Source of the DNA: Bacteroidia bacterium
Lineage (GTDB): Bacteria > Bacteroidota > Bacteroidia > Flavobacteriales > Schleiferiaceae
Length of the DNA stretch: 64,000 nucleotides
Assembly (NCBI GenBank): GCA_030424545.1
Contig: JAUHWL010000002.1
Location: 124,001-188,000, forward strand
Reading direction: 5' to 3'
Notes under the pieces: generated by a model
Seen by the model: the letters and a program-made list of their open reading frames with translations, nothing else
Told to the model about the DNA's origin: nothing
Database searches by the model: none
Shown here: in pieces, positions 15,219 to 33,791 of the stretch
Numbering within the stretch: the first letter of the stretch is position 1
How the letters are laid out: every line of letters begins with the position of its first letter
Made by a program: the position numbers and the translations under genes

Positions 15219-17117
15219 TTATAGTTGCGGCAAAGAGATTATAAACGTAGTACCATGGCCATGAGAACTTACAAGGTTTATGGTTCCTTTTAATTCGTTA
15301 ACCATTCTTTTTACAATACTTAAACCTAAGCCAACAGAGCTTTCGTTACCCGTTGGTTGGGCGCTTAGTGGTTGAAATTTTTTAAAGAGCAGAGATTTGT
15401 CTTGTTCATTAAATCCGGGTCCTTGGTCTGCAATGGTTATTTTGAGTGCATCTTCGGTGCTTTCTGTAGCAATAGAAACAATGGTTTTTGGTGGAGAAAA
15501 TTTAATGGCATTCGAAACAAGATTTTCTATAATCCTGGTGAGCCGATATGCATCTGTAATAAATGGTGCTTTAGAACTTTCTACGTAGAGAGAAATCTCT
15601 TTTTCTTTTGCCGCAACTTCATGCTCAGCTATAATTTTACTAAGCAATTCGTTGGGCAAGATAGACTCATGCAAAAGGTTTTTATGGCTTTCTTCTTCGC
15701 GTTGCGCTTCAATTAAATCTTGAATAAGTCGGTTGCTTGACAGTACATGTCCTTCAATTCTATTCAGTTTGGTTTGCGTTTCTGTGCTTAAATTTTTATC
15801 CAACGAAACCAGATCGGCAATGGCTCTGATTTTTGCCAAAGGTGCACGCAAGTCATGCGCTACAATATTTAAAATGCTGTTTTTCTCATTTACAGATTCA
15901 CTTAACTGTTCGTTTACTTTGGCCAATTCATCGTTTTTATCGGCAATAATTTGTAAGTGTTTTCGATTTTGCGCCCAGCCAAAAATTACAAGAAACGCAA
16001 GTATTGCAGCACCTATGCTTACGCCAACCCAACGTTGCTTTAGTAGCGATTCTCGCTCCAAATTTTGTTCTGCAATTATTTTATCTCTATTGGCAATTTC
16101 CAGCTCCTTATTTTTTGTAATCATCAAATAGTTGGCTTCTAAATTGGCAATTTTAGTTTTGCTGCTTTCAGAAAATATACTGTCTTTTAACCTTCTGCTT
16201 AACATTAAATAATGGTAGGCGTCTTTAAATTCTTTTTGATTAAAATAGGTTACGGCCACGTTTTGGTAAGCCCCAGATAGTTCTTGTAATTTTTGTTTAG
16301 ATTGGAAGTAATCTATGGCAACCAGCAGATGCTTTTCGGCTGTTTTCCATTGGCTAAACTCCATGGCAATCACACCAAGTTTTTCTTGTATTATACCCTG
16401 ATACGTTTTGTTATTTGTGCTATCGTCTAAGCGCAATGCTTTATTGTAATACTTTTTTGCATTTTCAAAATCTAGCTTTTGAAAATAGGCAGAGCCAATA
16501 TTTAAATAAGATCCTATTTGACCTTGTGTATAACCAAGTTCTTGGCTTCTTTCCATCGACTTGGTATGATAAAAAATAGCGCTATCAGGTTGGTGCAATA
16601 AATCGGCATGAACTACCCCAATGGCCTGGTAGTTATTCATTAACCACACTTGTTTGTTCGAAGCCAAATTAATCTCCAGAGCACGTTTTAGATAAGCTAA
16701 GGCTTCATCTGCATTTTCCCATTTAATGTAGATCATCCCGATGTTATGAAGCAATCCGGCTGTTTCATTTTTTTCACCGTTTTCTTCCATAATACGCAAT
16801 GCAACAAGATATTTATCCATTGCATCGGCATAATCGCCTTGTAAAAAGTATTGATTTCCTCTAGATTTCTGAGCTATAGCAATGTATGTTTTGTTGTTTA
16901 AGCTATCTGCAAGCGCCAACATTTGGTTACACAATTCTACGGCCCTTGTAGGATTGGTATAGGTGTAGCTGTTAATGAGTTCTGAGTAAGTCTTAAGCTT
17001 TGTGGTATCTGGGGGGCATTGCACCAAAAATTGCTCTAGCTTTTCTAACTTTTCGTTTTGCTGAGCATGCGCCAATAAAAACGTACAGAAAAAAGCAAGT
17101 AGGGTAGCAATACGCAT
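15219..17117 (-). CDS. TPR-containing sensor histidine kinase
   Basis: 632 residues from the ATG at 17117 (MRIATLLAFFCTFLLAHAQ, a good signal peptide); an upstream ATG at 17192 would overlap the divergent regulator. Periplasmic part: tetratricopeptide repeats from about residue 35 to 340 (e.g. AGLLHNIGMIYIKWENADEA). A coiled coil, one membrane helix (VGVSIGAAILAFLVIFGWA) and a HisKA domain follow, with the phospho-acceptor His421 in VAHDLRAP. The HATPase domain has N-box NLVSNAIKF, G1 DQGPGF and G2 GLGLSIVKRM. Its partner is the divergent response regulator 62 bases away. It may control the adjacent surface operon, which is inference. Confidence 0.93.
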   Translation of the reverse strand: MRIATLLAFFCTFLLAHAQQNEKLEKLEQFLVQCPPDTTKLKTYSELINSYTYTNPTRAVELCNQMLALADSLNNKTYIAIAQKSRGNQYFLQGDYADAMDKYLVALRIMEENGEKNETAGLLHNIGMIYIKWENADEALAYLKRALEINLASNKQVWLMNNYQAIGVVHADLLHQPDSAIFYHTKSMERSQELGYTQGQIGSYLNIGSAYFQKLDFENAKKYYNKALRLDDSTNNKTYQGIIQEKLGVIAMEFSQWKTAEKHLLVAIDYFQSKQKLQELSGAYQNVAVTYFNQKEFKDAYHYLMLSRRLKDSIFSESSKTKIANLEANYLMITKNKELEIANRDKIIAEQNLERESLLKQRWVGVSIGAAILAFLVIFGWAQNRKHLQIIADKNDELAKVNEQLSESVNEKNSILNIVAHDLRAPLAKIRAIADLVSLDKNLSTETQTKLNRIEGHVLSSNRLIQDLIEAQREEESHKNLLHESILPNELLSKIIAEHEVAAKEKEISLYVESSKAPFITDAYRLTRIIENLVSNAIKFSPPKTIVSIATESTEDALKITIADQGPGFNEQDKSLLFKKFQPLSAQPTGNESSVGLGLSIVKRMVNELKGTINLVSSHGHGTTFIISLPQL

Positions 17118-17179
17118 GTTTAGGTTTTTGTAGATTGGCCATAAATTTAAACAATAGCAGTTAAGGCAAAATAGATAAA

Positions 17180-17881
17180 ATGCAAAAACCACACATTTTA
17201 ATTGTTGATGATGATGCAGAATTGTGTGCGTACATCAAAGAATATTTGCTTGCAAAAGACATAGAAACACACGTGTGCGGAAATGCTCAGCTAGGGTTGG
17301 GCTACTTAGAATCTCACTCACCTGATTTGTGCGTTTTAGATATAGAAATGCCGGTGACCAATGGATTTGAACTGGCAAAAAGTATTGCAGAAAAATACCC
17401 TTACATGCCCTTTTTGTTTTTAACAGGGCAAAGCGATAGAAACGAACGTATAAAAGGACTGCAATTGGGTGCCGATGATTACATAACAAAGCCATTTAGT
17501 TTAGAAGAGCTTTTTTTACGCATTAAAGTGGTTTTAAAACGAACTCAAGATACCGTGATTAGGAGAGAAGAATCTCATCGGTTTTCTTTGGGAAAATTGC
17601 TTTTTGACTCTGACTATCAACGTGTAGAAGTGCTTACAGAAACGTTTAACCTAAGTGATATTGAAAACAAACTGCTTTCTATATTATGTCAAAATTTAAA
17701 CGAAGAAGTACAGCGAGATTTTATTTTAAAAGCTATTTGGGGCGAAAATGATTATTACAAAAACCGCAGTTTAAATGTATATGTAACAAGGCTGCGCAAG
17801 CTGTTGGCCCTTGAACCTAATGTGCAATTATTAAACCTGCATGGAAAAGGATATAAATTGGTTTTTCAAACAGAAACTTAA
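17180..17881 (+). CDS. OmpR/PhoB-family response regulator
   Basis: 233 residues. The receiver domain (1-120) has the acidic cluster D10-D12, phospho-acceptor D54 in CVLDIEMP, the conserved Thr in FLTGQ and the Lys in ITKPF. A C-terminal winged-helix DNA-binding domain follows, with the recognition-helix region RSLNVYVTRLRKLL. It is transcribed away from the TPR histidine kinase with a short shared promoter region (17118-17179), and the two form a two-component pair. Its 3' end meets the peptidase E gene tail to tail, 2 bases apart. The target genes are not visible from sequence. Confidence 0.95.
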   Translation: MQKPHILIVDDDAELCAYIKEYLLAKDIETHVCGNAQLGLGYLESHSPDLCVLDIEMPVTNGFELAKSIAEKYPYMPFLFLTGQSDRNERIKGLQLGADDYITKPFSLEELFLRIKVVLKRTQDTVIRREESHRFSLGKLLFDSDYQRVEVLTETFNLSDIENKLLSILCQNLNEEVQRDFILKAIWGENDYYKNRSLNVYVTRLRKLLALEPNVQLLNLHGKGYKLVFQTET

Positions 17882-20470: not shown

Positions 20471-22915
20471 ATGAAGCGTTTTTACTTTTTTATTTACTTA
20501 GTTTTTGTTTTCTCATGCGGGCTTGTTGCCCAAAATCAACCGGATAACCCGCAAGTTGAAGAAACCATTACGCCTTATGAAATAACAAATATTTCGTCTG
20601 CCATACAATTAACAGATGATCAAGTAAGGGCGGCATTAGAAATTGGCAACGATTCAACCAGCATTACTAAAGCACAAGAAAGCTTAACGGCTTTAATTAG
20701 TGCGTATAGAGATTTGGAAGAGGATACTGTAATTCTAGACTTTACATCCTTAAGTCTTTGGGGTTTAAAAGATATAAATCAACAATGGTTAAATATTAAA
20801 GAAAGCCTATTAGAGTTTAACCTAAGTATAGATGAGCCGCTTAAAGAAATTGCAGGTCATAAAGAGATTCTCGAAGAATTTATTAAAAAATGGACTGCCA
20901 CAAAACAATTTGCAGATACAGCCGATGTTTCTTCAGAAATAAAGGAATCTATCGGACATGGATTAGAAGCTACAAAGAAGGCAAACCAAAAGTTGAAAGA
21001 AAAGCAAGAAGCGTATTTGCTTATAGAGAATAATGTATCTAAAGAATTGCTGCTTATAAATGGTATTCTAAATCAGATTTCTGATACGAGGATAGAAAGA
21101 AGTAAAGATGTTTTTATTCCCGATTCGCCACCATTATTTCAGGTAGTACGCCATAGTGAGAACATAGATTTTTTCAGCCTTCTTTTTCAATCTGTGAAAG
21201 AATCTGTGAAAGAAGTAAAAGATTTTTTGGCTAAAAAGCCAATAGATATAATTGCCCATATATTCTTTTTTCTACTGCTCTGGTTTATATTGTTTCTGGT
21301 AAAAAGAGATCTTTTTAAATCGGGTTTTGATAAAGATGAAGCGTATACCGTTACCGCAAGAATCTTAAGCGCACCATTTACCAATGCACTATTAATCAAT
21401 ATTGTTTTTAGTGGCTTGTTTTACGAAAACTTCCCACTTATACTGCGTGTTTTTTTAGTTCTTGTTGCTTTAGTTCCGGTTATTATTTTACTGCCTAGAG
21501 TAATAGATCAAAAAAATAAAGGGTTTATTTATTTCGTTGCTGCGTTGGTGGTTTTAGATAAGTTTCAGTCGCAATTAACCTTTGATGTGCTAAGCCAGCG
21601 TATAGCCGTACTTGCACTTTCTCTTTTCGGCATTATTGGGTTGATACTTTTCAGTTTACCAAAGTCTGAATTTTATAAAAATGTAGTAAGCCATAAAAGA
21701 AAATGGATATTACATTTTTTAAAGCTGTTCATTTTAGTGCTTGTCATTGCCACGTACGGAAACATAAATGGCAATTTTCAACTGTCTTTACTCTTAACGA
21801 GTGGTGTAGTGCATGCCTTTACCGTTGGTGTGGTGGTGTTTATAGCAATCAATATTATTAGAGCCATGCTGCTGTATGTAATTAGAAGCGGGCTCTCAGG
21901 TAAATTAAACCTCCTTATTAAATTCAACAAGCAGATAGAATATTGGTCGTTTCTATTGGTTTCTATGGTCGGATTTTTTTTCTGGTTTAAATCTTCGCTA
22001 AGAGGTTTTGCCTTGCTTTCTCCGGTTGTAAATATTTTAAACAACATCAATAATGCATCGTGGCAATTCGGAGAAATTGTACTATCTGTAAGTAATATTG
22101 TCGATTTTATTGTCATTTTATTTGTTTTTATTGTGATTGCCAATATTCTTCATGTTGTTTTACGCGAAGAGGTTTTAACACGATTTGATTTAAGGAAAGG
22201 AATCCCATTAGCACTGGCTATTTTATCTAGATACATTGTGCTTTTTATTGGGTTTGTTTTAGCCATGTCTGCCGCAGGTATTAGCCTAAGTAAGCTTAGT
22301 TTGCTAGTAGGTGCGCTTGGGGTAGGAATAGGATTCGGGTTACAAAGTATCGTGAGTAATTTTGTTTCTGGTCTGGTCATTATTTTTGAGCGACCTATTC
22401 ATATTGGCGATACAATTTCCGCAGGAAATTTAGAAGGTGAGGTAAAAGAAATTGGGTTGAGAAGTTCTATTGTACGAAGTTGGGAAGGTGCAGAAGTTAT
22501 TGTACCGAACAATGATTTAATATCTAAACAAGTAACAAACTGGACACTTTCTGATAAACGAAGGCGTGTAGAGCGCATTGTGTTGATTGAAAGCGGACCA
22601 AGTCCGAGAAAGGTAAAAACCGTAATAGATAATGTATTAAAAGACCATAAAGGATTGCTAAAAGAACCAGCGCCCATGTCTTATTTTTTAGGTTTTGAAA
22701 ACAATGCATTAAAATTTAGAGTACTTATTTGGATTTCTGAAGGCTTATTAAACACACCCAGCGAAGTATTGTTAAACCTGCATGATGCGCTTACGGTAAA
22801 TGGTTATAAGGCGTATATGCCTATACAAAAAGTGATTGTTGATAAGCAAGAAAACAATGAATCTGCGAATCATGTTATTGGACTAACGCAAGACAAAAAT
22901 CCAAATGACCAATAA
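20471..22915 (+). CDS. Large MscS-family mechanosensitive channel
   Basis: 814 residues. The signal peptide ends around GLVAQ. A periplasmic coiled-coil region extends to about residue 230. About eight membrane helices follow, and then the MscS core: the Gly/Ala-rich pore helix LLVGALGVGIGFGLQSIVSNF, the beta-domain motif ERPIHIGDTI and EVKEIGLRSSIVR..GAEVIVPNN. This is the layout of long MscK/YnaI-like channels that release solutes on hypo-osmotic shock. It overlaps the downstream pirin gene by 11 bases, so the two are cotranscribed. Confidence 0.92.
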   Translation: MKRFYFFIYLVFVFSCGLVAQNQPDNPQVEETITPYEITNISSAIQLTDDQVRAALEIGNDSTSITKAQESLTALISAYRDLEEDTVILDFTSLSLWGLKDINQQWLNIKESLLEFNLSIDEPLKEIAGHKEILEEFIKKWTATKQFADTADVSSEIKESIGHGLEATKKANQKLKEKQEAYLLIENNVSKELLLINGILNQISDTRIERSKDVFIPDSPPLFQVVRHSENIDFFSLLFQSVKESVKEVKDFLAKKPIDIIAHIFFFLLLWFILFLVKRDLFKSGFDKDEAYTVTARILSAPFTNALLINIVFSGLFYENFPLILRVFLVLVALVPVIILLPRVIDQKNKGFIYFVAALVVLDKFQSQLTFDVLSQRIAVLALSLFGIIGLILFSLPKSEFYKNVVSHKRKWILHFLKLFILVLVIATYGNINGNFQLSLLLTSGVVHAFTVGVVVFIAINIIRAMLLYVIRSGLSGKLNLLIKFNKQIEYWSFLLVSMVGFFFWFKSSLRGFALLSPVVNILNNINNASWQFGEIVLSVSNIVDFIVILFVFIVIANILHVVLREEVLTRFDLRKGIPLALAILSRYIVLFIGFVLAMSAAGISLSKLSLLVGALGVGIGFGLQSIVSNFVSGLVIIFERPIHIGDTISAGNLEGEVKEIGLRSSIVRSWEGAEVIVPNNDLISKQVTNWTLSDKRRRVERIVLIESGPSPRKVKTVIDNVLKDHKGLLKEPAPMSYFLGFENNALKFRVLIWISEGLLNTPSEVLLNLHDALTVNGYKAYMPIQKVIVDKQENNESANHVIGLTQDKNPNDQ

Positions 22916-23780
22916 GAATAAGCAAATTATAAAAAACGTGTTGCCTGCTTTAACCGTGAATATGGGCGGTATCTTATTGTTGCAACCATTTCCTACACAA
23001 AACGTAGAGCACATAGATCCATTTCTGTTGCTACACCATCATCATGGTGTTGTTGAAAAAGGTCGCAAACAAAGCGATGCTGGTATTGGTCCGCATCCAC
23101 ATAGGGGGTTTTCGCCAGTAACTTTTGTTTTTAAGGGTGATGTTCATCATCGCGATAGCCGCGGAAACAGCAGCGTAGTAAAAGCCGGTGGCGTACAATG
23201 GATGAATGCGGGCATGGGTATTATCCACAGCGAAAGACCATCAAAAGAATTGCTTGAAACGGGTGGCGAACAAGAAATTTTGCAATTGTGGATTAATACT
23301 CCAGCAGCAAATAAAATGAATGAACCACGCTACTTTGCTCTGCAAAGAGAAGAAATGCCGCAGGTAGATATTGTAGAAGGAGATGTACGCATAGTTGCTG
23401 GAACATTTGCTGGAAAAATGGGACAAGTAAAAACCTACTTTCCGTTAGTTTGTTTAATGGGCCATTTAAATCCTGATGATGAACTACCTCTGATAAAGCC
23501 CGAAGGAGAAAACGCTTTTTTATATGTATTAGATGGCGATGGATTTTTACATAGTTATGGTGTGTTAGAAGAAAAAACGTTGTACACTTTTCATCAACAA
23601 AAAGTAGAAACAGCTTTAAAAGCGAAGAGCAAACTGCGCTTTATTTATGTAAGCGCGCTGCCTATAAATGAAAAAGTACAACAATACGGCCCGTACGTAA
23701 TGAATAGTCAAACCGAAATTTTAGAAGCATTGCGCGACTATCAAATGGGTAAAATGGGTTTTTTGGTGGAGGAGTTTTAA
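22905..23780 (+). CDS. Pirin-family cupin protein
   Basis: 291 residues, normal length. Two cupin barrels; the N-terminal one carries the metal-site His residues in HPHRGF and the later MGIIHSE (His and Glu), with GGVQWMNAG between them. Bacterial pirins include quercetin dioxygenases and regulators of central metabolism, and sequence alone does not decide which. The start overlaps the end of the MscS gene, and the stop overlaps the stop of the convergent methyltransferase gene by 4 bases. Confidence 0.92.
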   Translation: MTNKNKQIIKNVLPALTVNMGGILLLQPFPTQNVEHIDPFLLLHHHHGVVEKGRKQSDAGIGPHPHRGFSPVTFVFKGDVHHRDSRGNSSVVKAGGVQWMNAGMGIIHSERPSKELLETGGEQEILQLWINTPAANKMNEPRYFALQREEMPQVDIVEGDVRIVAGTFAGKMGQVKTYFPLVCLMGHLNPDDELPLIKPEGENAFLYVLDGDGFLHSYGVLEEKTLYTFHQQKVETALKAKSKLRFIYVSALPINEKVQQYGPYVMNSQTEILEALRDYQMGKMGFLVEEF

Positions 23781-24571
23781 TCTTTTTTGGCTGAAAAAGC
23801 GTAAACCATAGGGAGCTTGCCTTCAAGGTTTTTAATTTGCCATTTTCCTTTTTCAACTTCTACCACTGGCTTAAAGCACGGGTAGGGCGAATAATCAAAT
23901 TCTTGAAATTTTTCTAACGTAAAGCCTGCTTTTAAAAAGGCTTGCATCACTTCTGCTAACCCATGATTCCACGTAATACATTGGTTTTTTATAGATGAAT
24001 TAAAGTTTGTATACGTGCCTTCTAAATCCTCAACAATGGGTTCGCCATTAAAGTAAGAGTAGGTTATTTTTTCAAAATCATCATCATACATCCAAACGGC
24101 AGGATGAAATTCTGCAAAAACTATTTTGCCACCTGGATGTAGGAGTTTTGCGGCTACATGTGCCCATGCTTGTGCGCTCGGATGCCAGCCTATCACGCCA
24201 TAACTAGCAAAAATAATATCAGCTTTTTCGGTAATTAGTTTTGGGGCATCAAGCACATTGCCTTGAACAAATGTGGCGGGTAGATTTGCTTTTTCGGCTA
24301 ATTTTTTTGCTTGTAAAATAGATTCAGAACTCAAATCGAGACCAATAACATTTGCCCCCATACGGGCAAGGCAAAGTGTGTCTACTCCAAAATGACATTG
24401 CAGGTGAATAATGGTTTTGCCTTTTACATCGCCCAGCAATTCTAGCTCTATACTGTTTAGCTTATTGTCGCCAGCCAGAAAGCCTTCAACATCATAAAAA
24501 TTACTGCTTATGTGCTCTTTGGTGCGGTTGTCCCACAGGTTTTTGTTTAAGTCTAAATAATCAGGATTCAC
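23777..24571 (-). CDS. Class I SAM-dependent methyltransferase
   Basis: 264 residues. Motif I is degenerate (IIHLQCHFGVDTLCLARMG) with the acidic motif II residue in VIGLDLSSESI. FVQGNVLDAP and ADIIFASYGVIGWHPS match motifs III/IV of this Bacteroidota-common group, and LLHPGGKIVFAEFH is the post-motif strand. The substrate is unknown. It starts 27 bases after the catalase-related gene on the same strand and may be the third gene of the lipoxygenase operon. It could also just be a neighbour read through from it. If linked, methylation of an oxylipin or another acid is possible, but this is speculation. Confidence 0.85.
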   Translation of the reverse strand: MNPDYLDLNKNLWDNRTKEHISSNFYDVEGFLAGDNKLNSIELELLGDVKGKTIIHLQCHFGVDTLCLARMGANVIGLDLSSESILQAKKLAEKANLPATFVQGNVLDAPKLITEKADIIFASYGVIGWHPSAQAWAHVAAKLLHPGGKIVFAEFHPAVWMYDDDFEKITYSYFNGEPIVEDLEGTYTNFNSSIKNQCITWNHGLAEVMQAFLKAGFTLEKFQEFDYSPYPCFKPVVEVEKGKWQIKNLEGKLPMVYAFSAKKD

Positions 24572-24598
24572 TTTAAAATGCTTTTATAGAAAGGCAGG

Positions 24599-25690
24599 TT
24601 ATTTCCCCCATTCCTCGTTATTTCTGTTGTCGTTATTAGGAATTGGCGGTACCATGCCAAATATTTTTAAGGACAGTAATCTTGCTTTTCGCGCAATTTC
24701 ACTGTGTGCCCGCATGTAGTTTAATGAGTTGTAATCGTAGATTGATTTAGCGGGAATAATGCCTAAACTTTCTGGCATATTGTTTACAGAAAATGTAGAA
24801 ATGGTACTTTCTTTCCAATCTAATGTTTCGGTAATTTCAAAATCGGCCACGTCCATCCATGGGTAAATGCGTTCGTCCCACGGAAACATATTGTTGAAAA
24901 TTTCAGGGTCTTCATCATGGCTTGCTGTAACAAGCTGTATTTGCAACTTGTACTTGGCATGGCCTTTTTTCACACGATCTTCCCATTCATATTTTAAATA
25001 ATTACGCCCATTTTTTTCATGTGGGGCAACACGTTGGTTAGGCAATTCATAATCGCATGGATTTAATTGTAAACCGGTTTCTAATTGCTCCTTCTCGGGC
25101 ACCACGCGGTATTTGGCATAGCGTTGTATGCCATCTGTACCTTTAAATAAAAAGGGCGTTTTGCCATAATATTTAAGGTTGGTAAAAGAACTAGGGTTTC
25201 TACGCATGGCACCTATAGCACCTGTAGCTCCTTGTGGATATTTTTTAATGTAATCTACGTAACAAACCGCGTATTTTTCTTTTCGGGTTTTAGCAAACAT
25301 CAAAAAGCTTTTGGCACTCCAAAACAGGGTAGTAGCTCCGGTATTCATTTCAATATCAAATGGACTTTTAAAATGGTGCTGCGAGAATTTTAAAGAAATA
25401 CTACGGATGCCGTTTACGGCATCATCTAAATAGGTTGCTGTAGCGTGCCTTACACGTATAGGAAAAGTGCGGCCGGCTTTAAAGAAATCGTGTTCTGGAA
25501 ACTCAGGGTTGTCTACTATTTTTAAGTTGCCAAGACCTGCTATGCCGTTGTCATGGCTCATTCTATTTCTTTTAGGAAAGCTTAAAAAGGCAGCGATTAA
25601 AAAGCCAAAGAATTTGGCCGTGTGCCAAAGAATGATTTTATCAAAAATGGCAACTAGCTTGTTTTTATGGGCGGGGTAAAACTCACTCAT
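24599..25690 (-). CDS. Catalase-related protein of the coral allene oxide synthase type
   Basis: 363 residues. It starts with a hydrophobic segment (FFGFLIAAFLSF). Compared from memory with the AOS domain of the Plexaura homomalla AOS-lipoxygenase: SHDNGIAGLG aligns with the distal-haem THTVGTGGIG (distal His = His46; Thr66 is Ser45), FPEHDFFKAGRTFP is nearly identical, and MNTG supplies the distal Asn (Asn116). At the C-terminus PAKSIYDYNSL aligns with the AKSPEDYNSI segment. However, the proximal R-x-x-x-Y motif reads RAHSE, with Glu331 where the haem-ligating Tyr belongs. The next gene upstream, 12 bases away, is a lipoxygenase. Expected substrates are fatty-acid hydroperoxides; actual activity is uncertain because of the missing Tyr. 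Confidence 0.8.
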   Translation of the reverse strand: MSEFYPAHKNKLVAIFDKIILWHTAKFFGFLIAAFLSFPKRNRMSHDNGIAGLGNLKIVDNPEFPEHDFFKAGRTFPIRVRHATATYLDDAVNGIRSISLKFSQHHFKSPFDIEMNTGATTLFWSAKSFLMFAKTRKEKYAVCYVDYIKKYPQGATGAIGAMRRNPSSFTNLKYYGKTPFLFKGTDGIQRYAKYRVVPEKEQLETGLQLNPCDYELPNQRVAPHEKNGRNYLKYEWEDRVKKGHAKYKLQIQLVTASHDEDPEIFNNMFPWDERIYPWMDVADFEITETLDWKESTISTFSVNNMPESLGIIPAKSIYDYNSLNYMRAHSEIARKARLLSLKIFGMVPPIPNNDNRNNEEWGK

Positions 25691-25702
25691 TGTATGGTTT
25701 TC

Positions 25703-27877
25703 TTAAATGTTGGTTCTAGATTCAATGTCATCAATGCTTACGCCTATTTTATCAAAATCGGCTCGTTTGCTTTCTAGCAACTCTGTAAAAATGGGGTTTA
25801 CATCCCCATCTTCGTTTTTGGTGATAAAACCATATTCGGTGCGCGACAAAAAGTTGGCAAACCACAACTGTTGCGTGGTTACGGTTAAATTGGGTGCTAT
25901 AGAAAGATCGCTTTCGGGAACTAAAACACCACTTTCTTTATCGCCAAATCGCAAGCCACCACAGCTGTATAACACTTCTCCTAAATCGTCATATTGATGT
26001 TCATTAATCCAGGTGTGCATAAACGTAGCTTGCATGATTGCGTATTTACAAGCCCTTTTTAAATTGTTGATGTCCTCAGTGTCTTCTGCCGAAATAGACG
26101 TTTTATGTGTAATGGGTGAAACGACTTTTAGTTGATTGTTTCTTTTTTCTCGTGTCACAGTTTCATCAAAGCCGTATTGAAATTTGTAATACGCTAATCT
26201 TTCTAGGGCTTGGTTTCTTTCATTTGTGGGCAGTGCATCAAGATCAACATCCGAGAGAAAAACAGGGACACTATGATTTACCAAATCTTGCGAAAAGCGA
26301 TATACTTCGTCCCAATGAGAAATAATGCCTTTTAAGTTCTGCTCAAAGAAAGTGTTTACATAATTTTCTACTACCTCAAAGAAAATGTTCTCAGCTTGGG
26401 CATATCTGTGATCTTCGCTAATGCTTTTCATAGGGCGCCAGCTTTTCCAATCAAACATTCCCAATAAATCTTTTGCTCTTTTTACCAATCCTTTTGCATT
26501 AAGGGCAGTACCTTCGGGTAAAAACCCTTTTATAATGAGTTTGTCAGCACCCTCGTTAATGAGAGAAACTTCGCGCATGTGCGGCATTAATAGTATGCTA
26601 AGCGGGCTATGTTTAAAATTGCGAAATGTGGCAATAGCATATTGTTCTACATTAAGGTGTGTGCCTACAAAATGTTCATCAACTTCGGTACACACGTTAC
26701 CTACGCTCCTGGCCAATCTTTTTACAGCAAGCCAAAGCATTTCGCCATCTGCAGGGGTAAACTCTCTTTGTTGCCATTGGTCTTTGTTTATAGCGTTTAA
26801 TGCGCCAACGGTTTTTATTTTAAAGGGGATAGGAATGCCTTTGTTGTTGAAGTTAAAATAAATGGTTACATCTGGTAGCGCAAATTCATGGTTATGATCA
26901 TAATTACAAAGGCCAAAATATTTTATCATGTAAACATCTGGGTTTTCGGGGTCTTGCATAAAGGCACCACAATTCATCCCATTCATCATTCTTTCTCCAA
27001 ACCATTCATCGCCACGTGTGTAGCCAGGTAATTCTTTTTCTATGCATTGCGTAAGGTTTATAGGATAATCTGCTTGAATACTAGCATGGCTAATTTTATC
27101 AGAGTCTTCTTTTATCAGGAGAAGGTGCTTCAATTTTGTTAATTCAATAGGGATAATCTGCTCAATTAAAGCATCTTTTCTTCCTTGTGTATAGCTTTGA
27201 ATGGTATCTCCATTATCAAATTTCAATAATGTTCTGGGGATGATGGTGTCGGTTCTGTAATTCCAGTAATCTAGTTGAATTTCCCTTAAATTGTATCCCA
27301 TGCCTATGAGATCGGATTTTGGAAAAGTTTGTTTATGAAAAACACTGTAGTTATGATGACCTACTTTGTTTTTATCAAAATAAATGCTGTCTATCTCTTC
27401 AACTTCAAAAATTAAGTTTTTTCTGTTGGCCCATTTTACGGCTGCTCTAAGGTCAAAAGGTAAGTTAAAAACACCTTCATGGTCTGTATAACCTTCGGCT
27501 AATTTTCTCCACTGAAACAATTTTGTTCTGGCCCAAAACACCACTTTCATATGCACAATTGGTGTGCGTACGTCTGATTTTTCTTTAAATGAGATTACCC
27601 CGGTTAAATAGGCATCTTTAACAGTTCCAACAATTTCAGGGTTTCTAGGAAACCACCTTTCTTTTACACTGTTAAACCAGTTTCTGAGGTTTTTGTATAC
27701 AACATAAAGCCGCTCTAAAAATATAGTTAGGGGGTTAGATATAATCTTGGAGTAGCCAACTTCTAAGTGATTTATGCTTTTTAATTTGGGAGAAAAAAAA
27801 CCTCCTTTATTTGTGTATTGAATTCGTGTTTTCTTTTTACACTCATCAATAATTTGTTTTACGGATGTGCTTTCCAT
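25703..27877 (-). CDS. Lipoxygenase with all five iron ligands
   Basis: 724 residues. It dioxygenates polyunsaturated fatty acids to hydroperoxides using non-haem iron. Ligands visible: His402 and His407 in HFVGTHLNVE, His621 and Asn625 in MHTWIN, and the C-terminal Ile724 (SRTNI). The family motifs DEWFGERMMNG (near 285) and LLMPHMREVSLIN (near 430-440) are present. The Coffa position aligns with Ala444, which predicts an S-specific enzyme. The first 230 residues do not look like a PLAT/C2 domain; the stretch EGYTDHEGVFNLPFD suggests another beta-sandwich. It is the first gene of the operon, divergent from the kinase-cyclase gene. Confidence 0.88.
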   Translation of the reverse strand: MESTSVKQIIDECKKKTRIQYTNKGGFFSPKLKSINHLEVGYSKIISNPLTIFLERLYVVYKNLRNWFNSVKERWFPRNPEIVGTVKDAYLTGVISFKEKSDVRTPIVHMKVVFWARTKLFQWRKLAEGYTDHEGVFNLPFDLRAAVKWANRKNLIFEVEEIDSIYFDKNKVGHHNYSVFHKQTFPKSDLIGMGYNLREIQLDYWNYRTDTIIPRTLLKFDNGDTIQSYTQGRKDALIEQIIPIELTKLKHLLLIKEDSDKISHASIQADYPINLTQCIEKELPGYTRGDEWFGERMMNGMNCGAFMQDPENPDVYMIKYFGLCNYDHNHEFALPDVTIYFNFNNKGIPIPFKIKTVGALNAINKDQWQQREFTPADGEMLWLAVKRLARSVGNVCTEVDEHFVGTHLNVEQYAIATFRNFKHSPLSILLMPHMREVSLINEGADKLIIKGFLPEGTALNAKGLVKRAKDLLGMFDWKSWRPMKSISEDHRYAQAENIFFEVVENYVNTFFEQNLKGIISHWDEVYRFSQDLVNHSVPVFLSDVDLDALPTNERNQALERLAYYKFQYGFDETVTREKRNNQLKVVSPITHKTSISAEDTEDINNLKRACKYAIMQATFMHTWINEHQYDDLGEVLYSCGGLRFGDKESGVLVPESDLSIAPNLTVTTQQLWFANFLSRTEYGFITKNEDGDVNPIFTELLESKRADFDKIGVSIDDIESRTNI

Positions 27878-28048
27878 AGGTTAGGGCGAATATGGTTTTT
27901 TATTTTGCTATCAAACTTAATTAAAATTGAGAAGTATAATTGAGGGTATTATTTTTTAATATGATGTGCATCAACTTTTAATTTATAATCTTAACAACTT
28001 GTTTATTTTAGTGCCATATAGATTGCTAGAAAAATTGCCCAACAAAAA

Positions 28049-31000
28049 ATGATAGCTATTAAAGGATTTAAAATAAAAGAAAAGATTCTTGCCAAAAGAA
28101 ATCAATCTTTTTATTTAGCAAACCGCGATAGCGACAATAAAAATGTGTTTTTAAAGGTTGTAGAAAGTCAGGATTTTGATTCTACAGATATTATTGGGCT
28201 AAGACGCGAGTACAACATTTCTAAAAACTTAGTTCACCCAGGCATAGTAAATGGCTTGGGATTGATTGAATTTCATGGTGGTTCTGCCTTGGTGATGGAT
28301 GAATTTGAAGGTATGTCGCTTCAAAAAATGTTGGTAAACCAAAAAATTCCGTTCAGAGATTTTTTAATTATTGGCATACAACTTTGTGAAGCCTTAGGGT
28401 ATTTACACAGCCAAGGTATTATTCATAAAGACATAAAACCGTCTAACATTTTAATAAATCCTAAAGATTTATCAATAAAAATTATAGATTTTGGTATCGC
28501 CTCATTGATTCCGCAAGAGAATATTACCAATAACAATGCAACAGTTTTAGAAGGTACACTAACCTATATATCTCCAGAACAAACTGGGCGCATGAATCGG
28601 TCTTTAGATTATAGATCAGATTTGTATTCTTTAGGCATTACTTTTTATGAAATATTAACGGGTGTGCCACCATTTATTAGCGATGATCCGATGGAGCTCA
28701 TACACGCTCATTTAGCGGTTTTAGCCAAAACTCCAGAATCTTATAATCTAGAATTGCCAAAGGTTATTTCGCCAATTATTTTAAAACTACTAGAAAAATC
28801 TCCAGAAAACAGGTATAAAAGTATTACGGGTTTAAAGGCAGATTTAGAACGGTGTTTAACCGAGTTAGATAATAAAGGTGTAATTCCAAATTTTGAAATT
28901 GCTCAAAACGACATTTCGGATAAATTAAGTATTCCGCAAAAACTCTATGGAAGAGAAAAAGAGCTGGGTTCGCTATTAAACTCATTTACTAAAGCTAGTC
29001 AAGGCAATTCGCAAGTTGTGTTGGTTTCTGGTAGTCCTGGTATTGGTAAATCTGTACTTATAAAAGAAATGAGCAAACCTATTGTAGAAAACAAAGGGTT
29101 TTTTATTAGAGGCAAGTTTGATCAATTTAACAAAAATATACCGTATAGCGCCATTATTGAAGCTTTTAGAGAATTAATAAAAGTAATATTAGCCAACGAC
29201 CAACATGTTGTAAACGAGTGGAAACGCAGGATATTAAATCAGTTGGGCGATAATGGAAAACTAATAACAGATGTTTTACCAAGCCTAGAGTTACTAATTG
29301 GAGAGCAAAAAAGCGTAGCTGCATTGCCCGCGTCTGAGGCGTTAAACAGGTTTAATCTTGTTTTTCAAAATTTTGTTAAGTCTTTTTCTGGCGGGCCAAG
29401 TGCCTTGGTTTTGTTTTTAGATGATTTGCAATGGGCCGATGTGGCATCAATCCAATTGCTAAACTTTTTATTATCAGACAAAGAGAAAAAATATTTGATG
29501 GTTGTAGGTTCTTACCGAGATAATGAGGTACAATCCGGGCATCCCCTTTATCAAGCAATAGAGAATGCACAACATCAAGAAAATGTAAACCACATACACC
29601 TAAACCCGCTAAAAAACCAAGATTTAAAACAGTTATTGGCAGACACGTTTAGTTGTGCAATAGAAAATACCACAGAATTATGTGATTTAATTGACTCTAA
29701 AACAAAGCGGAATCCGTTTTTTATCTATGAATTTATTAAAACCTTGTACAAAAAAGAGCTCGTTTATTTTGATTACAACAAACGAAATTGGCAATGGAGC
29801 ATTGGTAAAATAGAGGAAAGCAATATTTCTGATAACGTAATCCAATTGGTTACAGAATTGCTTTTTGGGCTAGAAGAAAAAACGCACAAACTTTGTGCTT
29901 TGGCCTCTTGTATTGGTGGTACATTTGATTTGAAAACACTAGCGCTGGTTAACGAAAAATCGATTAAAGAAACAGCTGAAGACCTTTGGCAAGCCGTAAA
30001 AGAAGGGGTAATTATACCCATAACAGAAAATTACAGGTCTATAAGTAACAGTAGTTTAATAGCAGAAAAAACGACTTATAAATTTTTGCATGATCGTGTG
30101 CAACAAGCGGCATACGCTACTATCATAGATGAAAGAAAAAAGGAAATTCATTTAAAAATTGGTAGAATATTTTTGGCCAATAGAGCCGATAACGAGCACA
30201 TTAGAATCTTTGATATAGTTGGTCATTTTAATAATGGGATTAATTTAATTTCAGATCAAAAAGAAAAAGAGCAACTCATACATTTAAATATAGAAGCAGG
30301 GTTAAAAGCTAAAAAATCATCGGCCTTTGAGCCCGCTTTTAAATATTTTAATGTGGCTATGCAGCTTTTGCCTAAAACCCCTTGGCAAGCGTCTTACAAA
30401 CTCACACTTAGTATTTATAATGAAGCAGCAGAATTGGCTTACCTATCTGTAAAAACAAAAGAGTTTGAAGATTATACCGCTGAAATCTTGGCCCATTCCA
30501 AAACAGATTTAGATGCCTTAAATGCTTATTTGGTGCGTATTGCATACTATGGCTCGCAAGGAGATCATAAAAAATCGATAGAAAACGGATTTGAAATATT
30601 AGAAAAACTAGGTGTAAAAATCCCTAGAAATCCTAATAAGCTGAACATAGTTGTAGAACTAATAAAAACCAAAATTAGGCTACGAGGCAAAACAGCCGAA
30701 GATTTGTTTGCGTTGCCAAAAATGGAATCAGAGCAATACAAAGCCGCCATGTCTGTGCTTTCTATTGTAACGGGCCCGTCTTACATCGCCAACTCAAACC
30801 TATTTGTTTTAATCGTTTTTAAAATGATAGAGTTGAGTTATAAATATGGCAATAATCGGTATTCTAGCTTTGGATATGCAGTTTATGGAATTGTACTGGC
30901 CGGATTGATGGATTTGGCTGGAGTAAAAATGTTTGTAGAACTCTCGAAAAAACTGTTGCACAGTTATCCTAAAGATGAGCAGTTTAGTAAAGTTAATTAT

Positions 31001-33196
31001 TGCCTTTTATCGTTAGATTTTCTTTTTAGCCCAATGAAGAATTCGCAAAAACTAATGTTTAGCAATATTCAAAAAGGGTTTGATAGTGGCGATTTTCTTT
31101 ACGCCTCTTACTCGGTGGCTTACCACATGTTTTTAAAGGTGTATAGTAATTACCCATTGGTAAGACTAAATGCAGAATTAGAACCTCTATGCGAAAAACT
31201 TGATAGTTTAAACCAAACCGTTGGACTAGGGTGGACAAAATCGATGATGCAATTTGTAGATAACCTTACTAATAAACATGAAGTAAACACCACTTTAAAC
31301 GGTACTCATTTTGACGAAGAAGTCATGATGAAATTCATGGTAGAAAGCAAAAATGTATCTGGCATTACCTTGATGTATGTAGTAAATGGTATGAATAGTT
31401 TTGTTTTTGATAACTATAAAGAGGCGATAAAATTCTTTAATAAAGCAACACCTACAATAGATTCTTTGGTAGGAACACCAATGGTAAATGCTCATGCCTT
31501 CTATTTGGCAATGGCACATGTTGCAGTCTATAGAAAAGCTTCGTTTTTAGAAAAGCAGAAAACAAAATCCATCGTTAATAAAGGTATAAAGTCTTATAAA
31601 GTTTGGGCCAAATACTGTGCCGACAATAGCCATTCGCGATTGCACATACTTATAGCCGCAAAAGCCTATTTAAATCAAGAATATAAAAAGGCCAAAAAAC
31701 ATCTTAAAAAAGCGAGTGTTTATGCAGAAGAAAACAATTTAATTCAAGAAAATGCTATGGCCAAAGAGCTTTTGGCCAAACTAGCGCATGAATTAAATGA
31801 ACAAATTGCTTTTACAGAGTACATTGCAGAATCGCGCTTTTTGTATTTTAAATGGGGAGCTATTGCAAAAGTGAGGCAATTAGAAGAGAAATATAAACTG
31901 CAGAGAATAGTAGATAAAGAAACCGTAAAAGATAAGTTTGATAGAAATTTAAGCACCACATATTCTGCTGATTCATTAGACTTACAAACCATTATCAAAG
32001 CATCACAAGCGTTATCGTCAGAGGTTCAATTAGAAGAGCTTTTTAAGAAGATGATTAACATTGTGATGGAAAATGCGGGTGCCACAAAGTGCACGGTTCT
32101 ATTAAAACGAGATGGTACTTGGTATCAAGAGATATCAAAAGAAATATCTGGAGACGAAAACAATCTGAAAATTGATGTAATCTCCTTTGCAGAATCAAAT
32201 AGAAACAAGCTTGATTTACCGATAAGTGTAGCGAATTTTGTGATGCGCACAAAACAAAGCGTGGTTATAAAAAATGATGAAGACGCGAGCACTTATGCAA
32301 ATGACACTTACATCATTAATCATAAACCAAATTCTATTTTGTGTTTTCCTTTTAGCAGTAAGGGTGATGATTTTGGAATCATCTATTTAGAGAACAATCT
32401 TGCAAACGATGCTTTTTCTGAAGATAGAATTAGGCTGCTTTCTATTATTTCTGCACAAATGGCAATTTCTATTGAGAATGCTTTCCTGTATAAAAACTTG
32501 GAGCAAAAAGTAAAAGAAAGAACGACAGATTTGGTAGAAAAAAATAATGAGTTGGCCGTAGAAAAGAAAAAATCTGATACTCTTCTCTTAAATATTTTAC
32601 CTGTTGAAATAGCCAACGAATTAAAAGAAAAAGGAATAGCGAGTGCAAAAAAACATGCCAACGCAACGGTCTTGTTTGCTGATGTTAAAGGGTTTACAAC
32701 CATTGCAGAATCTTTAGAGCCTGAAGATTTAGTAGAATTGCTAGACCGCTATTTCAGTAGGTTTGATGAAATAATTGTTGCAAACAATTTGGAAAAAATA
32801 AAAACCATTGGAGATGCTTATATGGCTGTTGGAGGAGTTCCGGGAAACAATAAAGCAACGCCAAAAGATGTGGTAAGAGCAGGTAAGCAAATTTTAAGTG
32901 TAGCCAAAGAACTAGAAAATGAACTTTGCAAAGAAGGATTGCCTTATTTTCAAATAAGGATTGGTGTTCACACGGGGCCTGTTGTTTCTGGTATTGTAGG
33001 AAAGTCTAAGTTCCAGTTTGATATTTGGGGCGATTCTGTAAATGTTGCCGCAAGACTGGAACAAACTTCTGAGCCTGGAAAAATCAATATATCTAGGGCA
33101 ACCTTTAATGAAGTTAATGATGAGTTTGCATGTACACCTAGAGGAATGCTTCCTATTAGAAATAGAGGAGAAGTAGAAATGTACTTTGTTGAATAG
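28049..33196 (+). CDS. Ser/Thr kinase - ATPase - TPR-like - GAF - adenylate cyclase fusion
   Basis: 1715 residues. Kinase domain at 1-270: Lys36, catalytic HKDIKPSN with Asp128, DFG Asp147. AAA/STAND-type ATPase at about 295-700: P-loop GSPGIGKS at 328-335, Walker B LFLDDLQWAD. Helical repeat region at about 720-1290. GAF domain at about 1310-1475. A short coiled coil (KVKERTTDLVEKNNELAVEK) follows, then a class III cyclase at 1535-1715. Metal Asp residues are 1545 (FADVKGFT) and 1589 (TIGDAY). Lys1585 and Asp1658 (FDIWG) are adenine-selecting residues, so cAMP is predicted. Proteins with the same N-terminal half usually end in a histidine kinase. It lies divergent from the lipoxygenase operon. 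Confidence 0.92.
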   Translation: MIAIKGFKIKEKILAKRNQSFYLANRDSDNKNVFLKVVESQDFDSTDIIGLRREYNISKNLVHPGIVNGLGLIEFHGGSALVMDEFEGMSLQKMLVNQKIPFRDFLIIGIQLCEALGYLHSQGIIHKDIKPSNILINPKDLSIKIIDFGIASLIPQENITNNNATVLEGTLTYISPEQTGRMNRSLDYRSDLYSLGITFYEILTGVPPFISDDPMELIHAHLAVLAKTPESYNLELPKVISPIILKLLEKSPENRYKSITGLKADLERCLTELDNKGVIPNFEIAQNDISDKLSIPQKLYGREKELGSLLNSFTKASQGNSQVVLVSGSPGIGKSVLIKEMSKPIVENKGFFIRGKFDQFNKNIPYSAIIEAFRELIKVILANDQHVVNEWKRRILNQLGDNGKLITDVLPSLELLIGEQKSVAALPASEALNRFNLVFQNFVKSFSGGPSALVLFLDDLQWADVASIQLLNFLLSDKEKKYLMVVGSYRDNEVQSGHPLYQAIENAQHQENVNHIHLNPLKNQDLKQLLADTFSCAIENTTELCDLIDSKTKRNPFFIYEFIKTLYKKELVYFDYNKRNWQWSIGKIEESNISDNVIQLVTELLFGLEEKTHKLCALASCIGGTFDLKTLALVNEKSIKETAEDLWQAVKEGVIIPITENYRSISNSSLIAEKTTYKFLHDRVQQAAYATIIDERKKEIHLKIGRIFLANRADNEHIRIFDIVGHFNNGINLISDQKEKEQLIHLNIEAGLKAKKSSAFEPAFKYFNVAMQLLPKTPWQASYKLTLSIYNEAAELAYLSVKTKEFEDYTAEILAHSKTDLDALNAYLVRIAYYGSQGDHKKSIENGFEILEKLGVKIPRNPNKLNIVVELIKTKIRLRGKTAEDLFALPKMESEQYKAAMSVLSIVTGPSYIANSNLFVLIVFKMIELSYKYGNNRYSSFGYAVYGIVLAGLMDLAGVKMFVELSKKLLHSYPKDEQFSKVNYCLLSLDFLFSPMKNSQKLMFSNIQKGFDSGDFLYASYSVAYHMFLKVYSNYPLVRLNAELEPLCEKLDSLNQTVGLGWTKSMMQFVDNLTNKHEVNTTLNGTHFDEEVMMKFMVESKNVSGITLMYVVNGMNSFVFDNYKEAIKFFNKATPTIDSLVGTPMVNAHAFYLAMAHVAVYRKASFLEKQKTKSIVNKGIKSYKVWAKYCADNSHSRLHILIAAKAYLNQEYKKAKKHLKKASVYAEENNLIQENAMAKELLAKLAHELNEQIAFTEYIAESRFLYFKWGAIAKVRQLEEKYKLQRIVDKETVKDKFDRNLSTTYSADSLDLQTIIKASQALSSEVQLEELFKKMINIVMENAGATKCTVLLKRDGTWYQEISKEISGDENNLKIDVISFAESNRNKLDLPISVANFVMRTKQSVVIKNDEDASTYANDTYIINHKPNSILCFPFSSKGDDFGIIYLENNLANDAFSEDRIRLLSIISAQMAISIENAFLYKNLEQKVKERTTDLVEKNNELAVEKKKSDTLLLNILPVEIANELKEKGIASAKKHANATVLFADVKGFTTIAESLEPEDLVELLDRYFSRFDEIIVANNLEKIKTIGDAYMAVGGVPGNNKATPKDVVRAGKQILSVAKELENELCKEGLPYFQIRIGVHTGPVVSGIVGKSKFQFDIWGDSVNVAARLEQTSEPGKINISRATFNEVNDEFACTPRGMLPIRNRGEVEMYFVE

Positions 33197-33237
33197 CTTT
33201 TATAATATTTTCTTTTAAATGATTATACAGTTAATAA

Positions 33238-33743
33238 TTTCATCGCACAGCCAATGCTTTTTCATTTTCTATAAATCCAAAAATTCGTTTAAATAAGCTG
33301 GACTCAAAAGGTGCTTTATGAGCAAAGTTTATGTTGGGTTCTACATGTTTTAATACGCAAAATGGTTATTATTTTAAATCTGATATGACGGTAAACGGCT
33401 ATTTTAAGGGTACAGCAGAAGAATATTTTGAGCGGAATGATTAGGCCTTTACTTGGGGTAATGGGTTAGAGTATAGATATAACTTTAATACCCGTTGGGC
33501 TGTTTTTGCCTGTGGCCAACTGGCCACTTTTAATTGGAAACCCAAAACGGTAGAACGCTATTCATATATATAGTTAATGGTGTAGAATTGGTGCAAATAT
33601 TGACGAATAGAGAACAACAAATTCTTTTCTTAGATTCGTTTCAAGATAATCCTGACGATCCATATTCGGCTCAACTACTGGCGGCTGAGAATTACAGGAA
33701 TTTTGTCCCGCAATTTTCGCTAGGCGTAATATATAGCCTGTAG
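33238..33743 (+). pseudogene. Decayed outer-membrane protein remnant
   Basis: One frame reads through a beta-barrel-like sequence (SINPKIRLNKLDSKGAL, MLGSTCFNTQNGYYFKS, NGLEYRYNFNTRWAVF) but is broken by TGA at 33319-33321 and TAG at 33442-33444. A frameshift follows in the ATATATA run at about 33563-33572. After the shift it continues as YIVNGVELVQIL to a barrel-like C-terminus, PQFSLGVIYSL. No intact N-terminus or signal peptide is present upstream, only stops. The open frame starting at 33534 is therefore the tail of this pseudogene and not a gene. The family is not recognised. Confidence 0.75.
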
Positions 33744-33754
33744 ATTATTAAAAT

Positions 33755-33790
33755 AAAACGGTCTTCCATATATTTAGGAGACCGTTTTTT
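33755..33790. terminator. Bidirectional terminator between pseudogene and EF-G paralog
   Basis: Stem AAAACGGTCT / AGACCGTTTT, extended by CC/GG, followed by TTTTTT on the plus strand. It lies between the converging pseudogene and the EF-G-like gene. Confidence 0.75.
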
Positions 33791-33791
33791 G

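Follow-up and report, generated by a model that had tools for sequence, protein, structure and literature searches.

A 64,000-nucleotide stretch of a Bacteroidota genome from the family Schleiferiaceae (GenBank assembly GCA_030424545.1, contig JAUHWL010000002.1, positions 124,001 to 188,000; hereafter the window) carries, side by side, genes for a lipoxygenase (LOX), a catalase-fold protein resembling the allene oxide synthase (AOS) of corals, here termed AOS-like, and a giant signaling protein, here termed KIN. The linkage of the three genes recurs across distant bacteria, which suggests a lipid-signal or lipid-stress system not previously reported in bacteria. That LOX, the AOS-like gene and KIN are functionally coupled we consider highly probable. 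The reading we favor is that they form a signaling-coupled oxylipin module, to which we assign a probability of approximately one half; that KIN itself reads a product of LOX or the AOS-like protein is a tentative proposal, somewhat short of even odds.

Scanning a single genome for each species yielded 15 loci, 13 from Bacteroidota and two from Gammaproteobacteria, to which relatives and class samples added more. The LOX and AOS-like genes are adjacent in 16 of the 17 Bacteroidota genomes bearing the AOS-like gene (in G430 in reversed order), the one exception being G063, where LOX is found on another contig. In all 17, a KIN gene is the immediate neighbor of the pair (in G063, of the AOS-like gene alone). 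At nearly all loci KIN and LOX have the same orientation, KIN being situated 5′ of LOX and separated from it by -11 to 226 bp. In the window KIN is divergent from LOX, a layout shared by its nearest relative, G060, where the gap is 674 bp (read across two contigs with an overlap of 125 identical bases); the 171-bp LOX/KIN intergenic region of the window presumably holds the promoters of both genes. LOX and the AOS-like gene are separated by 12 bases, and a methyltransferase gene follows after a further 27. An earlier interpretation made from the DNA alone (the sequence-only reading) was exact in these gaps, as in the gene coordinates, strands and motifs, and its description of two separate, adjacent genes is borne out by their co-conservation. 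Its view of the operon was correct for the LOX/AOS-like pair but overlooked the conserved partner, KIN, which lies outside the span that it covered (23777-27877).

The two gammaproteobacterial loci are arranged differently. In a Competibacteraceae genome the lipoxygenase belongs to a different subfamily; KIN begins 7 bases after it, and a convergent AOS-like gene comes next (a layout that joins contigs overlapping by 306 bp at 98%), and a Xanthomonadales metagenome-assembled genome has LOX between the AOS-like gene and that of a SAM-cyclase-AAA_16 protein. In an even sample of 395 genomes of the class, the window's genome included, the AOS-like gene occurs in four, LOX in five and KIN in 24. 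With the window's genome excluded, all three AOS-like genomes are among the four with LOX (hypergeometric p = 4e-7), and all four LOX genomes are among the 23 with KIN (p = 9e-6). In a 229-genome class sample around G073, the AOS-like gene was found in no genome but G073.

Phylogenetic analysis of KIN bears on whether this linkage reflects function. Fourteen KINs linked to LOX/AOS-like genes constitute one fully supported clade; those of the window and G060 form a lineage apart from it, and the hypothesis that these 16 LOX/AOS-linked KINs of Bacteroidota arose only once is rejected (approximately unbiased test on a quick tree, p-AU = 2e-5). The LOX and AOS-like proteins of the window group, with moderate support, among those paired with the 14-KIN clade. 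These trees indicate that the KIN partner was probably replaced in the window's lineage with linkage retained, which argues for function over mere inherited gene order. The KINs of G166 and the gammaproteobacterium represent further lineages, poorly placed in the tree.

KINs at LOX/AOS-like loci comprise about 1700 amino acid residues and possess Ser/Thr kinase, AAA_16, GAF and class III cyclase domains. Pfam analysis of the window protein reveals the kinase at residues 22-256, a STAND-type AAA_16 ATPase at 298-486, a long TPR-like region with a weak match to TPR_CHK1, GAF at 1328-1475, and the cyclase at 1533-1715. The kinase (HKD, DFG), Walker A and cyclase motifs are intact, and the last of these, KTIGDAY/FDIWG, are closer to those of adenylate than of guanylate cyclases. 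Two Saprospiraceae KINs with LOX/AOS-like genes (L055, L056) terminate in a histidine-kinase ATPase (HATPase_c) rather than a cyclase, from which it follows that the output domain has been swapped within one clade. Cyclase-type KINs without LOX were also seen (L040:5535-7733 and L038:13393-14928) directly after an RPE65-family oxygenase gene in G197, and within two genes of an RPE65-family oxygenase gene, with a patatin gene between, in G337.

The sequence-only reading had recognized a five-ligand lipoxygenase, and this identification is confirmed. The protein exceeds the PF00305 cut-off narrowly (25.6 versus 23.6 bits), a consequence of its membership in the divergent CspLOX2 group; Cyanothece CspLOX2 (PDB 5ek8) is its nearest solved homolog, with which residues 101-724 align at E = 1.7e-82. 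The protein also has a β-rich N-terminal domain. The five iron ligands (H402, H407, H621, N625 and the C-terminal I724) are identical in 18/18 Bacteroidota sequences and in 5ek8, and the product is very likely a fatty-acid hydroperoxide. Alanine at the so-called Coffa position of lipoxygenases predicts S stereochemistry, and glycine is expected of an R-lipoxygenase. Since this residue is alanine (A444) in all 18 Bacteroidota sequences compared (Gly in CspLOX2), the hydroperoxide is predicted to be probably of the S configuration. G166 encodes, 6 bases before KIN, a 472-residue LOX-like protein (L037:11215-12633; E = 1e-7 to rabbit 15-LOX) in which, by eye, some of the iron ligands seem to be absent, making it a possible pseudo-lipoxygenase.

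The AOS-like protein contains the motifs FPEHDFFKAGRTFP, MNTG and DYNSL, and sequence searches return coral AOS as its best solved match (E = 2.5e-57). Its AlphaFold model (pLDDT 78, pTM 0.83) matches coral AOS 1u5u with a Z score of 38.5 and a root-mean-square deviation of 2.3 Å over 335 residues, while true catalases score about 24. Chance does not account for these matches, nor for those of LOX and the methyltransferase. The expectation that the best match of this gene would be catalase-related is thus upheld, but the Pfam comparison proposed with it gave nothing, no family (including catalase, PF00199) being matched up to E = 1. With no match to PF00199 and a fold ranking that places coral AOS over the catalases, we rejected catalase proper as the identity of the protein. 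In coral AOS the heme environment consists of distal T66, H67 and N137, the heme-coordinating R64, R102 and R360, and proximal Y353 (PMC5617202). Alignment equates R43, S45, H46, R81 and N116 of the AOS-like protein with coral R64, T66, H67, R102 and N137, such that Thr66 is replaced by serine with retention of the hydroxyl, and the distal His and Asn are kept. Coral R360 has no certain counterpart, R337 being conserved nearby.

The proximal side is altered. The R-x-x-x-Y helix, which carries Tyr353 in the coral enzyme, reads R327-A-H-S-E331 in the window; the profile search aligns the two proteins up to coral residue 352, stopping just before the tyrosine, a profile-profile alignment has a gap opposite it, and in the model the helix is interrupted at residue 330 (DSSP). 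By comparison, a catalase-related protein of Sinorhizobium NGR234 (L046; pNGR234a 410107-414000), whose neighbors are an annotated catalase, a di-heme peroxidase and a patatin, retains the motif as R-A-I-V-Y. Loss of the proximal tyrosine therefore marks the AOS-like subfamily, and for this reason the protein is named AOS-like and not filed as AOS. A tblastn search of plasmids recovered relatives from Sinorhizobium only. At residues 11-37 the model possesses a hydrophobic N-terminal helix (DSSP). In G063 a LOX-type N-terminal domain is fused to the AOS-like protein (L008:5530-7044; 504 residues), directly after KIN; the LOX gene of this genome overlaps by 4 bp the gene of a 455-residue protein with cyclic-nucleotide-binding and HisKA domains (L049:6280-7647).

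In the proposed module, LOX would add O2 to an unsaturated fatty-acyl chain to give a hydroperoxide, presumably S, which the AOS-like protein, with its coral-AOS scaffold, distal pocket and altered proximal side, would take as substrate or ligand. KIN would then sense the lipid so formed, or that same state of lipid peroxidation, or would control the LOX and AOS-like genes, and it would respond by phosphorylating proteins and forming a cyclic nucleotide or, in the Saprospiraceae, through a phosphorelay. The genes, their folds and motifs, their joint conservation and their linkage to KINs of two lineages are observations; the identity of the product and the direction of the signal in this scheme are surmised. 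A bacterial lipid-mediator system, in which LOX and a catalase-fold protein devoid of the classic tyrosine-heme ligand would together form an oxygenated lipid for which a kinase-STAND-GAF-cyclase protein is the receptor, is rather unlikely. If true, it would represent a bacterial counterpart of eicosanoid-to-cyclic AMP signaling, and would be part of a larger family that also includes pairings of this type of receptor with RPE65-type oxygenases.

Several observations weigh against this scheme. A tyrosine is found at or beside the proximal position in none of the 18 AOS-like homologs that cover the region, members other than that of the window having Glu, Gly or Ile there, so heme chemistry may be absent. 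The oxylipin route proposed in the sequence-only reading thus retains its LOX, complete in its iron ligands, but is weakened in its AOS activity. No polyunsaturated fatty acid synthase scores over the cut-off in any of the 18 module genomes; FA_desaturase-family proteins occur in all 18, and the LOX substrate may be exogenous. KIN is found without LOX in 19 of the 24 KIN genomes of the class sample, which makes it a general receptor type, not one specific to oxylipins, and G166 has LOX and KIN without an AOS-like gene. Finally, gene adjacency is silent on the direction of signaling.

These points give room to other explanations. The genes could constitute a lipid-peroxidation stress or membrane-repair operon, in which KIN is an oxidative-stress sensor inducing LOX and the AOS-like gene and there is no oxylipin messenger. 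In fungi, Mak2 and Mak3 join Ser/Thr kinase, GAF and histidine kinase domains in one protein and have a role in oxidative stress (PMC5383687); the weak TPR_CHK1 match in KIN is congruent with this, as is a gene convergent with the LOX/AOS-like pair in G049, the translation of which resembles glutathione peroxidase. This neighbor is a single case, however, and LOX produces peroxides instead of removing them; we regard a pure stress operon as rather unlikely.

A plain coral-like pathway would require the AOS-like protein to be a genuine heme enzyme, either AOS or hydroperoxide lyase, with another axial ligand, KIN merely regulating expression. The proximity to coral AOS, far ahead of the catalases, and the retention of the distal His and Asn, R43, R81 and the hydroxyl at the Thr66 position are what one would expect of such an enzyme, and a substitute heme ligand could be residue 325, a tyrosine in the Bacteroidota members that both gammaproteobacterial proteins replace by histidine. 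This residue is situated two positions before the arginine, not one helix turn after it, and R-x-x-x-Y is missing from 18/18 members, with the coral alignment ending before Tyr353, whereas the rhizobial relative still has the motif. Both this pathway and classical coral-type AOS chemistry as such seem to us doubtful. The converse, that the AOS-like protein is a pseudo-enzyme which binds the LOX product (a lipid hydroperoxide) or heme without catalysis and hands over to the membrane or to KIN, is no easier to accept. The subfamily-wide loss of the proximal ligand from an otherwise retained pocket, the hydrophobic N-terminal helix, the LOX-type N-terminal domain fused to the protein in G063, and the seemingly ligand-poor second LOX-like protein preceding KIN in G166 would all fit a binding role, but the distal His and Asn, which are important for catalysis, are invariant, which is unusual for a mere binder. 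A single biosynthetic route from LOX through AOS and a methyltransferase to a methylated oxylipin, the last step being one that the sequence-only reading had entertained, is very improbable, for although the methyltransferase gene is on the same strand closely 3′ of the AOS-like gene, it lacks relatives at every other locus scanned, that of the nearest relative (L005) among them, and was rejected as a member of the conserved module, outside of which it probably lies.

The proposed module can be compared with a number of known systems. In Pseudomonas aeruginosa, oxygenated fatty acids serve as quorum-sensing signals, formed by heme diol synthases and perceived by a transcription-regulator sensor; that bacterial system likewise employs oxygenated fatty acids as signals, but is not known to involve LOX, a catalase relative or a kinase-cyclase. 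The coral AOS-lipoxygenase and hydroperoxide lyase-lipoxygenase fusions (Plexaura homomalla, 1u5u/3dy5; Capnella imbricata) also pair a catalase-fold partner with a lipoxygenase and share the overall fold and the distal His/Asn, with 37-38% identity over the aligned region. Unlike these fusions, the window has separate adjacent genes with a giant kinase/cyclase gene attached, and its AOS-like protein lacks the proximal Tyr353 and has Ser for Thr66. Its LOX is of the CspLOX2 type, with Ala at the Coffa position instead of the Gly expected of an R-lipoxygenase, whereas the coral product is 8R (PMC5617202). Among cyanobacterial proteins, CspLOX2 is a full-length homolog of the window LOX, and the catalase-LOX of Acaryochloris marina, a fusion with a 9R product (PMC11719350), likewise combines LOX with a catalase relative; it differs in that Ala444 predicts S for the window enzyme, and the literature consulted reports no linked kinase for the cyanobacterial cases.

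The architecture of KIN recalls the cyanobacterial cbSTKIII "dual" kinases (HstK, Pkn40/41 and Tery_2857, the last with GAF and cyclase domains; PMC2176072) and fungal Mak2/Mak3/Chk1, all of which share with it an N-terminal Ser/Thr kinase and GAF followed by a histidine kinase or cyclase. The window KIN ends in a cyclase and thus falls outside cbSTKIII as defined by an N-terminal Ser/Thr kinase, GAF and a C-terminal histidine kinase, and neither PMC2176072 nor PMC5383687 describes a lipoxygenase partner for these cyanobacterial and fungal kinases. A search of the open-licence literature returned no report of a lipoxygenase associated with a catalase relative in Bacteroidota, nor of one associated with a kinase of this type, so the earlier suggestion that the Bacteroidota case was undescribed apparently holds.

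Lipoxygenases are uncommon in bacteria, and what they do there is poorly understood (PMC6612559). A conserved three-gene neighborhood including a signaling receptor provides a hypothesis for their purpose that is testable in cultured strains, such as those of Algoriphagus, Indibacter and Limnovirga. An AOS-like protein without the proximal tyrosine would, in addition, test how far catalase/AOS chemistry depends on that ligand.

Table 1. Features of the LOX/AOS-like/KIN locus in the window (coordinates are those of the window)
Feature	Coordinates	Strand	Remarks
Methyltransferase	23777..24571	-	264 aa, GTG start; generic Methyltransf_25/11 (Pfam)
AOS-like, catalase-fold coral-AOS-like protein	24599..25690	-	363 aa
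LOX, lipoxygenase	25703..27877	-	724 aa; start at 27877
LOX/KIN intergenic region	27878..28048		171 bp, divergent; from sequence
KIN, Ser/Thr kinase-AAA-GAF-cyclase protein	28049..33196	+	1715 aa; Pfam and adjacency in related genomes

Other neighbors and origins were considered (Table 1 lists the genes retained together with the methyltransferase). A neighboring pirin gene was rejected as a module member, no relative being present at the loci scanned. A role in anti-phage defense is not favored: PADLOC matches occur in KIN, where they correspond to the kinase domain (PD-T4-6 and similar models), but not in LOX or the AOS-like protein. Neither of the latter two has a PHROG match, and a phage origin is not supported. 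Rfam reveals no elements at gathering scores within 22000-34000 of the window. Judged by the translations of its open reading frames, 15219-17881 of the window encodes an ordinary two-component pair, in which the gene for a histidine kinase bearing TPR-like repeats is divergent from that of a response regulator.

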